Shown: piece after piece, positions 13,314 to 59,732 of the stretch | How the letters are laid out: each line of letters opens with the position of its first letter | Position numbering within the stretch: position 1 is the stretch's first letter | Translations under genes and position numbers: made by a program | The notes under the pieces: generated by a model | Database searches by the model: none | The model's input: the letters and a program-made list of their open reading frames with translations, nothing else | What the model was told of the DNA's origin: nothing | NCBI RefSeq assembly: GCF_000214665.1 | Contig: NC_015572.1 | Span: 620,001 to 684,000 of the forward strand | Reading direction: 5' to 3' | Length of the DNA: 64,000 nucleotides | From: Methylomonas methanica MC09 | Lineage (GTDB): Bacteria > Pseudomonadota > Gammaproteobacteria > Methylococcales > Methylomonadaceae

Positions 13314-14717
13314 ATGAAATTAAGAACCACCAAATTGGCTGCCGCCATAACACTACTTGCTGCGAATACGCAGGTTAGCGCTGCGGGAATCCCGGCTGAA
13401 AAACCGCAAACAATGGAAGAGATGTGGAAGATTATTCAGGCGCAACAGCAACAAATCGATAGCATGACCAAAAAACTGGAGACGGTGGCGGAAAAGAAGG
13501 CCGCCGGCGATGTCAGTCAAATCGAGCGAAAAACCGACGTATTGACGGAAGAAGTGGAAAAACTACGCACCCAGTTGGTGGTGCCTGAAAAAACCGAATA
13601 CAAGAGCGCCTATGGTTTAGGCCCTGCTGCATCCAAGGTTTATCAGGTTGGAAAAGGTCTGTCGATAGGCGGATACGGCGAGGCAAATTATCAGGCTAGG
13701 GTCGATGATCAAGGCGGTCGAGACGCGAACGGCAATTTAGTCAATCCGGATAACGCCGATTTCGAACGCTTGGTCATTTACGCGGGTTACAAATTTAGCG
13801 ATAACATCCTCTTCAACAGTGAGATTGAATTCGAACATTCTTCTACCGGTAAAGGTGGGGAAGTCTCTGTTGAATTCGCCGCGCTGGATTTTTTTATCAA
13901 CAAAATGGCCAACGTACGGGCGGGTATGGTGTTGATGCCGATGGGTTTCATCAACCAAATCCACGAACCGCCATTCTTCTTCGGTAACAACCGGCCGGAA
14001 GTCGAGCGCCGCATTATTCCTTCCACGTGGCGTGAAATTGGTGCCGGTTTATTCGGTGAGCTGGCGCCGGGCTTGACTTATACAACCTACGTTGTGAACG
14101 GAATGAACGCCGACAATTTTAGCAGTAGCGGCATTCGTAGCGGCCGGCAATCAGGCGCGCAAGCGAAAGCGGAGGATTTGGCCTACGTCGGGCGTTTGGA
14201 CTATGCGCCTGATTACTTGCCGGGTGTGACCATTGGCGGTTCGGCGTACATTGGCAACTCCGGACAAAACAAACTGTATAACGGCCATAAATTGGACGTG
14301 ACGACACAGTTATACGAAGCGCATCTACAGTGGAAATACCGCGGTTTGGAATTCAGAACTCTCGGTTCATTCGGCCGGATCGGCGATGCGGCTGCTTTAA
14401 GCGCGGCGAAAGGAACTACCATCGGTTCCGAAAACTACGGCTGGTACAGCGAAGTCGGTTACGACATTTTGCCGCATATTTTCCCGGATAGCACCCAATA
14501 CCTGGCACCGTTTTTCCGCTACGAAAAAATGGACACTCTGGCCAGCGTACCGGTCGGTTTTGCCGACGATTTCAGCAAAGATATTGAAATCTTCCAGATC
14601 GGTATGAACTACAAGCCGATTCCCAATGTTGTCATCAAGGCCGACTACCGGAATTTCAATCAAAAAGCCGGTACCTCGCCCGACGACTTTAATTTGGGTG
14701 TCGGTTTTATCTTCTAA
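13314..14717 (+). CDS. Outer-membrane porin, probably iron-regulated
   Basis: 467 residues from the ATG at 13314, after the ribosome binding site CTGGAGAGTGAC. Signal peptide MKLRTTKLAAAITLLAA...VSAAG, then a short coiled coil (about 35-85, QAQQQQIDSMTKKLE and DVLTEEVEKLRTQL) as in trimeric porins, then a beta-barrel of alternating strands ending in Phe (GVGFIF), the usual outer-membrane C-terminal signal. Resembles phosphate-selective-type or DUF-class porins by feel; substrate unknown. First gene of a set with an FMN-binding protein and a membrane protein; the Fur box suggests a role in iron uptake or redox chemistry. Confidence 0.8.
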   Translation: MKLRTTKLAAAITLLAANTQVSAAGIPAEKPQTMEEMWKIIQAQQQQIDSMTKKLETVAEKKAAGDVSQIERKTDVLTEEVEKLRTQLVVPEKTEYKSAYGLGPAASKVYQVGKGLSIGGYGEANYQARVDDQGGRDANGNLVNPDNADFERLVIYAGYKFSDNILFNSEIEFEHSSTGKGGEVSVEFAALDFFINKMANVRAGMVLMPMGFINQIHEPPFFFGNNRPEVERRIIPSTWREIGAGLFGELAPGLTYTTYVVNGMNADNFSSSGIRSGRQSGAQAKAEDLAYVGRLDYAPDYLPGVTIGGSAYIGNSGQNKLYNGHKLDVTTQLYEAHLQWKYRGLEFRTLGSFGRIGDAAALSAAKGTTIGSENYGWYSEVGYDILPHIFPDSTQYLAPFFRYEKMDTLASVPVGFADDFSKDIEIFQIGMNYKPIPNVVIKADYRNFNQKAGTSPDDFNLGVGFIF

Positions 14718-15403: not shown

Positions 15404-15891
15404 TGCGTTTTTTTGTCACCGGCGAACAAAATCGCCAATTGTTGATGAACACGCTGATTTTGATGTTTCTGGTCTACGTGGCCTTGTTATGGGTGAGCAA
15501 CGGCCTGATGTATTTCCATAAAATGAATCTCGGCGTCGATTCTGTCTTGGCGTATTATCTGGGTTCGGAACAGGAATTTACCCAGCCCAGAAGCTATCAG
15601 AGTTTATTGGAAGTAACCCATTTCCACCTGTTTGCCATGGGTATGCTGGTGCTGACCTTGACGCATTTAATGTTGATGACGCATTTGCCGACGCTGGTTA
15701 AGGTTTGGCTCAGCGTTATCATCTACGCCTCCGCCATAGCCGATGAAGCGGCGGGATGGTTAGTACTGTTCGTGCATCCCGGTTTTGCCTATTTCAAAAT
15801 AGCGGCCTTTCTGTTATTGGAAACCTCCTTGGCGGTTTTGATTATCGTTGTCATTATCTCGTTAGTACAAGCCAGACGGCGCATAAACTAA
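15403..15891 (+). CDS. His-rich four-helix membrane protein
   Basis: A 162-residue protein with about four membrane helices (about 13-35, 66-90, 100-120, 130-155). Histidines cluster in the second helix region, VTHFHLFAMGMLVLTLTHLMLMTHL, a pattern compatible with heme b binding. No family name recognised. Its start overlaps the stop of the FMN-binding gene by one base. With that neighbour it could form an electron-transfer pair, membrane quinol or heme to periplasmic flavin, but this is inference. Confidence 0.65.
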   Translation: MRFFVTGEQNRQLLMNTLILMFLVYVALLWVSNGLMYFHKMNLGVDSVLAYYLGSEQEFTQPRSYQSLLEVTHFHLFAMGMLVLTLTHLMLMTHLPTLVKVWLSVIIYASAIADEAAGWLVLFVHPGFAYFKIAAFLLLETSLAVLIIVVIISLVQARRRIN

Positions 15892-15971
15892 GCCGCTGAT
15901 CGGCGGGCTTTGCGGTTTGCCAACTTGCCTTGTACACTGCGGGCACTACCGCATCTCGACAGGAGAACGTC

Positions 15972-57197: not shown

Positions 57198-57591
57198 ATG
57201 TGGGTCCTGGTTGGATGATTACGGTATATGTTGCGGGATTGATTAAGCTTAAGCAATAAACCCTCGTTCGTTCCCGTAATTTCACTATGGTGTATTTTGA
57301 CACCGTTAGCGATACCAGCCCCATCACTGCAATTAGAAACAGCGCAATATTTTGACATCTGTAGTCCAAGTAACTAAACTGCGCATCTTTTTAACCCACT
57401 AACCCACCGAAGGAGGCTGTATGTTCGATTTTGCAACGCGCTTGAGCCTCGCATCCTTAACCGGTCGGTAATCAATCCGATCATCAGGATCGGGCTTCCG
57501 CATTAATCCCTTATTTAATTTTTGGCCGATTCCGGTCAGGGCTTGCTATTGCCGTTGGGCTGCCGGCTTCGGATAGGCTTTGTGGAAGTTT
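57198..57591. other. Intergenic region before rbfA-like/rtcB
   Basis: A 394-base gap between divergent genes. A 70-codon minus-strand frame (57146-57358) has no known features and overlaps the endopeptidase signal peptide, so it is not called. An AAGGAGG sequence near 57411 precedes an ATG at 57421 that opens only a very short frame, ending at the TAA at 57469. No terminator or RNA gene recognised. Confidence 0.4.
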
Positions 57592-58017
57592 ATGAAAACA
57601 CATCAATCCAAGCGCTCACAGCCGTTGTGCGCAGTATGGCGCGAAGGCGACGGTCTGGCGCCTCGTTTTGAACAACGCGACCCGGTTAAACAACTGGTGC
57701 GTAAAGACCAACAACTGAGTAAACAGGCGCATCGCGCTTTAAGTTCATTTCTCGAAGGCGAATGCAAGCACCCCGATTTGTTAGGCATCGAGGTGGTCGC
57801 CGTACAGTATGAACCCGCCAAACAACGTCTATGTGTCAGCGTCGGTTCAGCCAACAATCAGGCTAACGGCGAAGCCGTTTTAGCGGCATTAAAACACAGT
57901 CAAACGGTGCTGCGTAGCGTGGTTGCAGCCGGCTTACATCGTAAAAAAGTTCCGGTTCTTAGTTTTTATTACGTTGGCGACAATACAGGAGGTGAGTCAT
58001 GCCTATTCAAACCCTGA
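57592..58017 (+). CDS. RbfA-like ribosome-binding factor
   Basis: 141 residues from the ATG at 57592 (GTGGAAG ribosome binding site; 57580 is a less likely start). From about residue 35 on the sequence follows the RbfA KH-like fold: QLSKQAHRALSSFLEGECKH, then PDLLGIEVVAVQYEPAKQRLCVSV, and QTVLRSVVAAGLHRKKVPVLSFYYV, which line up with E. coli RbfA's PRLGMMTTVSGVEMSRDL and [23 protein letters not shown]. The gene overlaps rtcB by 19 bases. It is probably an RbfA paralogue, since the housekeeping rbfA usually lies by infB and truB. Role unknown; association with RtcB suggests ribosomal RNA repair. Confidence 0.72.
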   Translation: MKTHQSKRSQPLCAVWREGDGLAPRFEQRDPVKQLVRKDQQLSKQAHRALSSFLEGECKHPDLLGIEVVAVQYEPAKQRLCVSVGSANNQANGEAVLAALKHSQTVLRSVVAAGLHRKKVPVLSFYYVGDNTGGESCLFKP

Positions 58018-59195
58018 TTACCAAAGGCAAAGTGCCGGTCAAGATTTACACAGGCCAAGTTGATCCGGCAGCCTATCAACAATTGCTAAACTTGTCGCAG
58101 ATGCCGTTTGTGCACAGCCATATTGCCGTGATGCCCGATGTGCATTGCGGCAAAGGTGCCACGGTCGGTTCGGTGATTCCTACGCTGGGAGCCATTATAC
58201 CGGCAGCAGTCGGCGTGGATATTGGTTGCGGCATGTGCGCGGTGCGTTTGTCACTCAATGCCAACGATTTGCCGGACAGCTTACGTTCGTTGCGGCTGGC
58301 CTTGGAAGCGGCGGTGCCGGTCGGTTTTGCCATGCACCGTAGCGATCGAGCGCAACGCTCGACCATTAACGCACTTGGCGTGGGTTTACATCAAATTTTA
58401 GATAAACACCCCAAGGTCAATGCCAAGCAAAACAAACCCTATCAAACCTGGATACGCCAGTTAGGCACGCTAGGCGGCGGCAATCATTTCATCGAGTTGT
58501 GCCTGGATGAAAGCGATAAAGTGTGGATCATGCTGCATTCCGGCAGCCGAGGCATAGGCAATGTGATTGGTGAGTATTTCATCAATCTGGCTAAAAAAGA
58601 CATGGGGCAGCATTTGCTGAATTTGCCGGATAAAGACTTAGCCTATTTTCGCGAAGGTGCGAAACACTACGACGATTATTTGCTGGCCGTCGGTTGGGCG
58701 CAAGACTATGCCATGACCAATCGCCGCGAAATGCTGCGTTTAATCGGCGAGGTATTGCATAAAAAATGGCCGAAATTAACCTTCACCAAGGAAGTCATTA
58801 ACTGCCATCACAACTATGTTGCTCACGAATGGCATTTCGACGCCAAAGTTCTGATCACCCGTAAAGGCGCGATTCGCGCCGGCGAGGGCGAACTGGGGAT
58901 TATCCCGGGCAGCATGGGCGCACGTTCTTACGTTGTGCGCGGTAAAGGTAACGAACAATCCTTTTGTTCGTGCTCGCACGGCGCCGGACGCCTGATGAGT
59001 CGTAGTGAGGCCAAGCGCCGTTACAATGCCGACGACGTCGCCCATCAAACACAGGGTATTGAATGCCGTAAAGACAGCGGTGTGATCGATGAAATCCCGG
59101 CGGCGTATAAGGATATCGAACAGGTTATGGCGCAGCAAAGCGACTTAGTTGAAGTCGTGCATCAATTACGGCAAGTGATGTGCATTAAAGGCTAG
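57999..59195 (+). CDS. rtcB: tRNA/RNA ligase RtcB
   Basis: A 398-residue 3'-phosphate RNA ligase. Motifs: VMPDVHCGKGATVGSVI, GVDIGCGMCAVR with metal-binding Cys, LGGGNHFIEL, MLHSGSRGIGN and CHHNYVAHE; the guanylylated His is in CSCSHGAGRLMSR near 330. Joins 2',3'-cyclic phosphate or 3'-phosphate ends to 5'-OH ends with GTP and Mn. Strong ribosome binding site AGGAGGTGAG just before the ATG, inside the preceding gene. No rtcA or rtcR in view; instead it is paired with an RbfA-like gene. Confidence 0.95.
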   Translation: MPIQTLITKGKVPVKIYTGQVDPAAYQQLLNLSQMPFVHSHIAVMPDVHCGKGATVGSVIPTLGAIIPAAVGVDIGCGMCAVRLSLNANDLPDSLRSLRLALEAAVPVGFAMHRSDRAQRSTINALGVGLHQILDKHPKVNAKQNKPYQTWIRQLGTLGGGNHFIELCLDESDKVWIMLHSGSRGIGNVIGEYFINLAKKDMGQHLLNLPDKDLAYFREGAKHYDDYLLAVGWAQDYAMTNRREMLRLIGEVLHKKWPKLTFTKEVINCHHNYVAHEWHFDAKVLITRKGAIRAGEGELGIIPGSMGARSYVVRGKGNEQSFCSCSHGAGRLMSRSEAKRRYNADDVAHQTQGIECRKDSGVIDEIPAAYKDIEQVMAQQSDLVEVVHQLRQVMCIKG

Positions 59196-59336
59196 TTAAT
59201 ATATACAGGCAGGCGCTTGCGAACATTTTTGACGTAAGCACCTGTTCCCTCATTTTTGCAGCATGACAATTCAGGCCTCTCAACAAGCAGTGCCGATAAA
59301 TAAACACCTATCGAGGGTCGCGCCGGCGTGTTGGCG

Positions 59337-59732
59337 TTATTCATCGCAAATATGCCGCGGCTTACCACTGATATCCTCGGTGGGGTGTACTGTTTTGGGC
59401 AGATTCGGCAGCATATGTTTCATGCCTTCCCCGCATTTTTTCATATCCTGCATGATATTGCTTTGGGCAGTTTCCTTGCCGAAAGCCATCGCGCGCGCCA
59501 TGGCGGCGTCGCGTTTTCCCGCCGCGCATAGGGCTTTGACTTCAGTATCCATGGCTTCGGCTTTTTGTTGAAAGGCCTCCATTTCGGATTGATCGATGTT
59601 AGCCATACAATTTTGCATGGTTTGCGCCTGTTGCATCAGCTGCTGCATTTGCGCCTCCGTCATGCCGCCCATGTTTTGAGCTGAAGCGGTAAAGGGGATT
59701 AATAACACGCTAATGAGTAAGTGTTTGTTCAT
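59337..59732 (-). CDS. Secreted small protein, hypothetical
   Basis: A 131-residue protein with a signal peptide (MNKHLLISVLLIPFTASAQN) and a Met/Gln-rich helical body (MTEAQMQQLMQQAQTMQNCM); three or four Cys could form disulfides. No family recognised. It lies 38 bases after the TolC-family gene on the same strand, so it may be co-transcribed. Confidence 0.65.
   Translation of the reverse strand: MNKHLLISVLLIPFTASAQNMGGMTEAQMQQLMQQAQTMQNCMANIDQSEMEAFQQKAEAMDTEVKALCAAGKRDAAMARAMAFGKETAQSNIMQDMKKCGEGMKHMLPNLPKTVHPTEDISGKPRHICDE

Follow-up and report, generated by a model that had tools for sequence, protein, structure and literature searches.

In the genome of Methylomonas methanica MC09 a gene that resembles rbfA directly precedes a gene for an RtcB RNA ligase, which raises the question of what an RbfA-like protein and an RNA ligase might do together. 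An initial annotation of this DNA had proposed that an RbfA paralogue delivers RtcB to damaged 16S rRNA. The window that was analyzed is a stretch of 64,000 nucleotides, positions 620001-684000 of the genome (a single 5.05-Mb contig).

Results

Organization of the operon

The reading frames confirmed that the RbfA-like gene and rtcB share 19 bases, as had been annotated. Both genes are preceded by a conserved leader (57412-57588), which consists of a short ORF with a strong Shine-Dalgarno (SD) sequence and of competing helices behind it. Judged by sequence, the anatomy of the operon, i.e., leader, RbfA paralogue, and RtcB, is very probably correct (Table 1). An in-frame TTG is present at 57580, 12 bases ahead of the ATG at 57592, and the ATG is favoured as the start of the RbfA-like gene because the conserved SD sequence lies just 5′ of it.

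The promoter scan returned one site, and the count was not significant (shuffle mean 2.5). A TTGA[CG] box was found 15-90 bases 5′ of the leader SD sequence in 20 of the 23 leader rows, and it was absent from L009, L021, and L032. One terminator-like site (57520-57541; shuffle mean 2.7) lies between the leader ORF and the RbfA-like gene.

Table 1. Features of the leader and the two genes, in window coordinates.
Feature	Position	Strand	Remarks
Sigma70-like promoter, TTGACA-17-TAAACT (candidate)	57352..57380	+	5′ of leader; consensus scan, 10/12 matches
Arm 1, leader SD GGAGGCT	57412..57418	+	Predicted to pair with arm 2
Leader ORF, MFDFATRLSLASLTGR and stop	57421..57471	+	SD sequence AGGAGG at 57411-57416
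Arm 2, AGCCTCGCATC	57445..57455	+	Leader ORF codons 9-12; predicted to pair with arm 1 or arm 3
Hairpin H, CCGATC..GATCGG	57477..57493	+	Overlaps 5′ part of arm 3
Arm 3, GATCGGGCTTCCGC	57488..57501	+	After leader stop; predicted to pair with arm 2 or arm 4
Arm 4, GTGGAAG	57582..57588	+	SD sequence of RbfA-like gene; predicted to pair with arm 3
RbfA-like paralogue, 141 aa	57592..58017	+	PF02033, predicted fold, clade, dN < dS in 5/5 pairs
N-terminal signature CAVWREGDGLAPR ('EDGxDPR' motif) of paralogue clade	57628..57666	+	Precedes KH-like core
RtcB RNA ligase, 398 aa	57999..59195	+	Second RtcB paralogue of genome; PF01139, 433 bits

The RbfA-like protein belongs to a separate clade of RbfA homologues

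The RbfA-like protein scored 39.5 bits with the Pfam model RBFA (PF02033), above the curated cut-off of 34.7, and its predicted KH-like fold was closest to solved RbfA. The profile and the structure prediction for 57592-58017 thus agree with the similarity over the KH-like core that had been described in the initial annotation. Its relatives P0040, P0144, and L032 scored 27.2, 27.1, and 31.2 bits, respectively, under the cut-off of the same model. With TIGR00082, the equivalog model of housekeeping RbfA, the RbfA-like protein reached 27.6 bits, below the cut-off of 51.15, and 35 of 59 clade members matched this model at E <= 0.001.

A separate rbfA was indeed found beside infB, at genome position 1398605-1398919 (111.6 bits), and its neighbours encode IF-2, TruB, and S15. 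It could therefore be ruled out that the RbfA-like gene is the sole or the housekeeping rbfA of the genome, since the infB/truB site holds another one. A BLASTP comparison of the two RbfAs of the genome revealed no similarity above chance. The annotation had hinged on a detectable profile similarity and on the existence of a second rbfA, and both were found.

Homologues of the clade were gathered with the window protein first and then with profiles. Ahead of the RbfA core the clade members share the N-terminal consensus LCxExGPEDGIDPR, and by script patterns the EDG motif was present in 58 of the 59 rows of the clade and absent from all 37 canonical RbfA rows. In a tree of the 59 clade rows and the 37 canonical RbfAs the clade formed one side of a branch with support 100/99; the canonical RbfA of the genome itself is outside the 37, and the program warned of long branches, chiefly can_L131. 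The dN values of five pairs of relatives (0.08-0.18) were lower than the dS values (0.22-1.56) in every pair, and on this ground the RbfA-like genes look constrained. We conclude that the protein is genuinely homologous to RbfA and that its clade is separate from housekeeping RbfA.

Profile A3 matched 398 proteins at E <= 1e-6, Methylococcales included. Among the 120 of the 398 matches listed (P0026-P0179), most were of metagenomic origin and many were labelled ribosome-binding factor A. One of the matches listed, P0144, is named as a Gemmataceae bacterium, most others being without an organism name, and because of this name the EDG clade appears to reach the planctomycetes. The EDG clade is large outside Methylococcales.

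The RtcB of the operon and the other RtcB of the genome

The window RtcB passed the Pfam model PF01139. Its motifs CGM, GNHF, HSGSRG, HHN, and HGAGR, which we take to be catalytic, align with those of the other RtcB of the genome and, with small differences, with 2epg. Elsewhere in the genome, at 3.644 Mb, there is an RtcR-RtcB-RtcA operon (L061), the RtcB of which is 54% identical to the window RtcB and has no RbfA-like partner beside it. Neither RtcR nor RtcA nor a sigma54 regulator adjoins the window operon; the eight other window ORFs that were scanned belong to other families or to none.

The gene beside the window rtcB is RbfA-like, and a PrfH over the cut-off was not found in the genome. 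The two PrfH matches below the threshold belong to reading frames that are 364 and 367 aa long, as would fit ordinary release factors. With the model of PrfH-linked RtcBs the window RtcB scored 134.8 (cut-off 271.8). An archease search of the genome yielded no match at E <= 1, and the possibility that an archease had been misread as RbfA was therefore rejected. The top NCBIfam match of the window RtcB was to an intein-containing RtcB-family model (445 bits over residues 77-398, below the cut-off of 1050); the ORF has the ordinary length of an RtcB.

Conservation and predicted structure of the leader

The 330 bases upstream were compared in 23 rows (the window plus 22 loci, among them two that duplicate other rows), and in all of them GGAGG is followed by an ORF of 12-20 codons, a stop, and 71-191 bases to the next start. 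Four further loci have the same layout of the leader ORF. In loci in which the RbfA-like gene is gone, arm 4 is, by its position, the SD sequence of rtcB.

Covariation was analyzed with 22 sequences (21 distinct), many of which are close kin; alignment A6 omits L019 and L028, which carry a long insert, as well as L032 and the two repeats, L006 and L008. Helix 2:3 was 96.1% paired on these 22 sequences (slid controls at most 58.1%). Three of its pairs, with eight cells, had changed on both sides, and the cells and the score were reached by none of 500 shuffles; the number of pairs with double changes was equalled or exceeded by 35 and that of pair types by 194 of the 500. In hairpin H, for which four pairs were counted, all cells (100%) were paired (slid controls at most 58.4%), and two pairs and five cells had changed on both sides. 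Its cells and score were reached in 0/500 shuffles, and values as high occurred in 70/500 for pairs with double changes and in 349/500 for pair types. Helix 1:2 was 93.0% paired (slid controls 28-46%) and did not rise above the shuffles (147/500), because it varies too little. For helix 3:4 a script count on 24 sequences showed seven adjacent pairs that are standard in 23 or 24 of them, and the pair at the edge of the helix is C-G in 14, A-T in five, and unpaired in five.

Helix 2:3 excludes helix 1:2 and hairpin H, and it competes with helix 3:4 for arm 3. The same arm logic can be built from different bases: L020 and L021 carry AGTCC/GGACT in place of AGCC/GGCT, and the arms of L032, from genome G301, are TCGAGCCT/AGGCTCGA/ATCGAG. 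Mean duplex energies of own arms versus arms of other leaders were determined for 21 sequences and amounted to -12.6 versus -11.0 for helix 2:3, -13.9 versus -12.7 for helix 3:4, and -11.7 versus -11.1 for helix 1:2, own arms thus being favoured only slightly for all helices. The folding-energy z score was unusual for L009 (-3.05); it was -1.31 for the window, -0.28 for L032, and +0.74 for L020. Taken together, the leader has the predicted anatomy of a translational attenuator, namely an ORF led by an SD sequence and mutually exclusive helices, one of which would hide the SD sequence of the next gene.

Distribution of the leader and other leader types

A covariance model of the leader was built from the 22 sequences and was used to search 301 genomes of the order at E <= 0.1. 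It matched 39 places in 36 genomes, and 26 of these (25 genomes) scored above 30 bits, the next value being 24.7. All matches above 30 bits precede the RbfA-like–RtcB operon or its remnants: 19 stand before both genes, one before a deleted RbfA-like gene, three before RtcB alone, and three before remnants. The 13 matches below 25 bits are taken as chance matches; five of them were inspected, and neither gene was present within these loci. The leader precedes 23 of the 25 loci of the RtcB clade defined below and is thus commoner beside RtcB than the RbfA-like gene is (19/25).

The only match of the model in the window genome is that of the window itself, and therefore no such leader stands before the RtcR-linked RtcB. 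A repeated mobile leader was considered and rejected, as the leader is single copy in this genome. No Rfam family exceeded its cut-off within 57200-59600; a sub-threshold match to the algC RNA (26.1 bits, cut-off 33.8) lies at 57524-57553 between arm 3 and arm 4. The PADLOC search for defence systems had no family for the RbfA-like protein or RtcB.

Other leaders were observed before related rtcB genes. Loci L084 and L085 (G064 and G103) have the leader ORFs MSVPKSFLSITITTG and MPVLQPNLFIFISG, about 200 bases 5′ of an rtcB with 62-63% identity, together with a strong terminator-like hairpin and a T-run and without an RbfA-like gene; from their sequence these leaders look like transcription attenuators. 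A third leader type (MQQKINTKxNQE...) was seen by eye in L082 (G206) and L136 (G282), with hairpins and a terminator-like stem with T-run before rtcB.

Simulated switching of the leader

The consequences of a ribosome on the leader ORF were simulated for 19 leaders (without L013, L068, L069, L071, and L074). Arm 2 starts at nucleotide 25 of the leader ORF in 16 of the 19, at nucleotide 28 in two, and at nucleotide 23 in one. With the ribosome as a block of 32 bases, a footprint from which the effect partly follows, the mean probability of helix 2:3 was predicted to be 0.42 in free RNA, 0.62 with the ribosome at codons 1-3, 0.05 at codons 4-8, and 0.03 at the last three positions. The respective values for helix 3:4 were 0.52, 0.39, 0.73, and 0.75. 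In the model, helix 3:4 was less probable early than late in 18/19 leaders, less probable than at codons 4-8 in 17/19, and less probable than in free RNA in 13/19, and helix 2:3 was more probable at codons 1-3 than in free RNA in 13/19. The predicted mean exposure of the SD sequence of the RbfA-like gene was 0.21 early, 0.17 in free RNA, and 0.09 late; early exceeded late in 18 of 20 leaders, and early and free RNA did not differ significantly (p 0.13; 20 leaders). The window leader was noisy in the simulation, its free RNA being mostly in the 2:3 form, and L014, L015, and L019 did not switch as predicted. The prediction from these simulations is that arrest at the first three leader codons opens the operon.

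Based on the sequence of the leader and the genes, we propose a self-regulated RNA-repair operon, in which the leader senses ribosomes that are arrested early and the RbfA paralogue guides RtcB to cleaved 16S rRNA; we consider the chances of this proposal to be evenly balanced. A ribosome that has started the leader and is stuck within the first three codons would cover arm 1 and leave arm 2 free. Free arm 2 would pair with arm 3, and arm 4 would become exposed. A ribosome further along the leader would cover arm 2, hairpin H and helix 3:4 could form, and the genes would be off. Opening of the SD sequence of the RbfA-like gene should serve both genes, because the RtcB frame overlaps. The ribosomes that are arrested early would be those with an injured decoding centre.

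It is unlikely that the operon is instead devoted to tRNA repair, with a leader that senses missing charged tRNA at codons 2-3 (Phe, Leu, or Ser, and mostly Asp), an RtcB that reseals tRNAs, and an RbfA-like protein that only helps. The leader peptides do mostly start with MFD, MLD, or MSD, in the simulations a stall at codons 2-3 does not block arm 2, and for the Rtc operon of other bacteria regulation by damaged tRNAs was reported (PMC7790460). However, codon 3 does not encode Asp in L015, L019, L020, L021, L028, and L032, two of which (L020 and L021) do have Asp at codon 4, and a partner of the 30S-binding RbfA type is left unexplained. The substrate of RtcB could be tRNA or mRNA.

Linkage of the RbfA-like gene to one clade of RtcB

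The frequency with which RbfA paralogues adjoin rtcB was surveyed in the same 301 genomes of the order, which is taken as Methylococcales. Matches to the RbfA-like profile were present in 21 and RtcB matches in 73 genomes. The RtcB clade comprises 25 loci with at least 67% identity to the window RtcB, three of which are partial; a further RtcB fragment in G122 is uncounted. In 19 of these 25 loci the RbfA-like gene lies directly 5′ of RtcB. Its frame is interrupted in two of the 19 (G121 and contig 103 of G010), and the RtcB match of G290 spans stops. In G263 the RbfA-like gene carries an internal deletion, and the leader and RtcB have been kept. In G123, G226, and G271 the RbfA-like gene has been lost, and rtcB follows directly after the leader. 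In G206 and G282 a leader of another type precedes rtcB, and directly 5′ of rtcB no RbfA-like gene is present. The leader together with a truncated RbfA-like gene or remnants of it, and without intact RtcB, was found in G032, G090, and G207. An intact RbfA-like gene away from RtcB was not seen among the 301 genomes; the sole other weak profile match, L025 in G282, is, as judged by eye, an ordinary rbfA that lies between infB and truB, with rpsO also in its locus. On contig 69 of G122 a full rtcB (13471-14664) is followed by a C-terminal rtcB fragment (15547-15927; residues 272-398, 76% identical), which may stem from a partial duplication.

Among 369 genomes of the class, a clade-like score was reached, apart from the window, only by G301 (118.7 bits; the next match had 56.9), which belongs to another order. 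Its RbfA-like gene (L032) sits behind a leader ORF, on a different contig from the only RtcB match of the genome, which is 65% identical (L123). By eye, what look like a terminator and a short leader ORF precede this rtcB. A wider spread in the phylum (398 genomes, profile A3, E <= 1e-10) was rejected, since the 11 non-window matches, with 42.8-49.7 bits and starts at profile position 26 or later, are taken as ordinary RbfA. The viral contigs searched contained no confirmed relative, and the plasmids, searched with the one query P0040, gave no match.

These results bear on the role of the protein. The proposal that an RbfA paralogue delivers RtcB to damaged 16S rRNA is partly supported, namely by the distinct paralogue, the overlapping frames, and the linkage to one RtcB clade. 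Four loci that retain leader and RtcB and have lost the RbfA-like gene, or carry it with an internal deletion, speak against an obligatory role in delivery. RtcB can thus do without the RbfA-like gene. Such dispensability would also be expected if the RbfA-like protein were an activator of RtcB and a stand-in for archease, without a role at the ribosome; the genome has no archease, and the protein is encoded in an operon with rtcB and is close in size to archease (16 kDa; PMC3973293). This explanation is nevertheless improbable, as the predicted fold is that of RbfA and no protein of this kind is encoded beside the RtcR-linked RtcB of the genome. We also doubt that the protein is an RbfA for 30S assembly under stress or in the cold with rtcB as a merely co-regulated neighbour, which would agree with the clear RbfA homology and with the G301 gene that has its RtcB on another contig, but not with the finding that no intact copy away from RtcB was seen in the order searched, and even G301 has retained a 65%-identical RtcB.

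Discussion

In the proposed repair operon, the RbfA-like protein would attach to the 30S subunit in the manner of RbfA, at the junction of helix 44 and the decoding centre, expose the cleaved end of the 16S rRNA, and bring RtcB there. Contact with RtcB or rRNA may be made by the EDG motif at its N-terminus. Colicin E3 cuts the 16S rRNA between A1493 and G1494 in the decoding centre, and PrfH and RtcB2 were described to split and reseal colicin E3-cut ribosomes (PMC9223846). RbfA was reported to have a part in how helix 44 docks at the decoding centre (PMC8201178). The ribosome-repair reading is consistent with this known biology of RtcB2-PrfH and RbfA. According to the same report on RtcB2-PrfH, rtcB2 alone also protects, which fits the RtcB loci without a partner (PMC9223846). 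Among the open-licence papers searched, RtcB and RbfA are both named in just two, one time each, and the titles of these point to unrelated subjects.

The operon is a new variation on a known theme, RtcB-PrfH and PA5471.1. With RtcB2-PrfH of E. coli ATCC 25922 (PMC9223846) it shares a second RtcB, a ribosome-directed partner, and the 16S decoding centre as proposed target; it differs in that the partner is an RbfA paralogue and not a release-factor homologue and in that the order in the window is partner-rtcB. A report of 2006 on RtcB and PrfH already read the closeness or overlap of the two frames as pointing to a joint function (PMC1586002); RbfA does not occur in the main text of that paper. 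The leader PA5471.1 of Pseudomonas aeruginosa was proposed to control the RtcB-like armZ, which lies beside prfH, when ribosomes stall or are impaired (PMC12057347). Both PA5471.1-armZ-prfH and the window operon have a leader peptide 5′ of an RtcB-like gene and an attenuation that would be relieved on stalling. By analogy, the same three roles as in the ArmZ/PrfH system are filled by other parts: leader and partner differ, and a transcription attenuator was proposed for PA5471.1, whereas the window arms would hide the SD sequence of the next gene.

The latter arrangement resembles the translational attenuators of the erm type, in which a leader ORF is combined with four arms and a stalled ribosome frees the SD sequence of the next gene. 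In contrast to these, arm 1 of the window leader is its own SD sequence, the predicted effective arrest is at codons 1-3, and the genes controlled would be those of RNA repair. The RtcR-RtcB-RtcA operon has the RtcB ligase in common with the window operon, which has no adjacent RtcR, RtcA, or sigma54 regulator, and the two RtcBs are 54% identical. Archease-RtcB operons (PMC3973293) likewise combine the gene of a small protein with rtcB, but the window protein has an RbfA fold and no archease match. Fold and core are common to the window protein and RbfA (PF02033, TIGR00082), from which it differs by its separate clade, its EDG N-terminus, a context without infB, and a score below the equivalog cut-off.

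A tentative extension, which we hold to be possible and somewhat less than probable, is that detection and repair of ribosome damage are united in one operon, that the paralogue re-opens helix 44 on the broken 30S subunit and docks RtcB via its EDG N-terminus so that the 16S rRNA is resealed, and that the members of the clade are repair adaptors, in planctomycetes too. Known partners that direct RtcB to ribosomes are few, and PrfH is the one that was found described in the open-licence literature. If the proposal is true, an RbfA paralogue tied to an RtcB clade would be the second such partner, and it would be one built from an assembly factor, suggesting that steps of assembly are used again in repair. 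The leader offers a testable answer to the question of how damaged ribosomes could be sensed independently of RtcR, and, because related lineages have leader ORFs of other sequence before their RtcBs, this principle may be wider than the operon.
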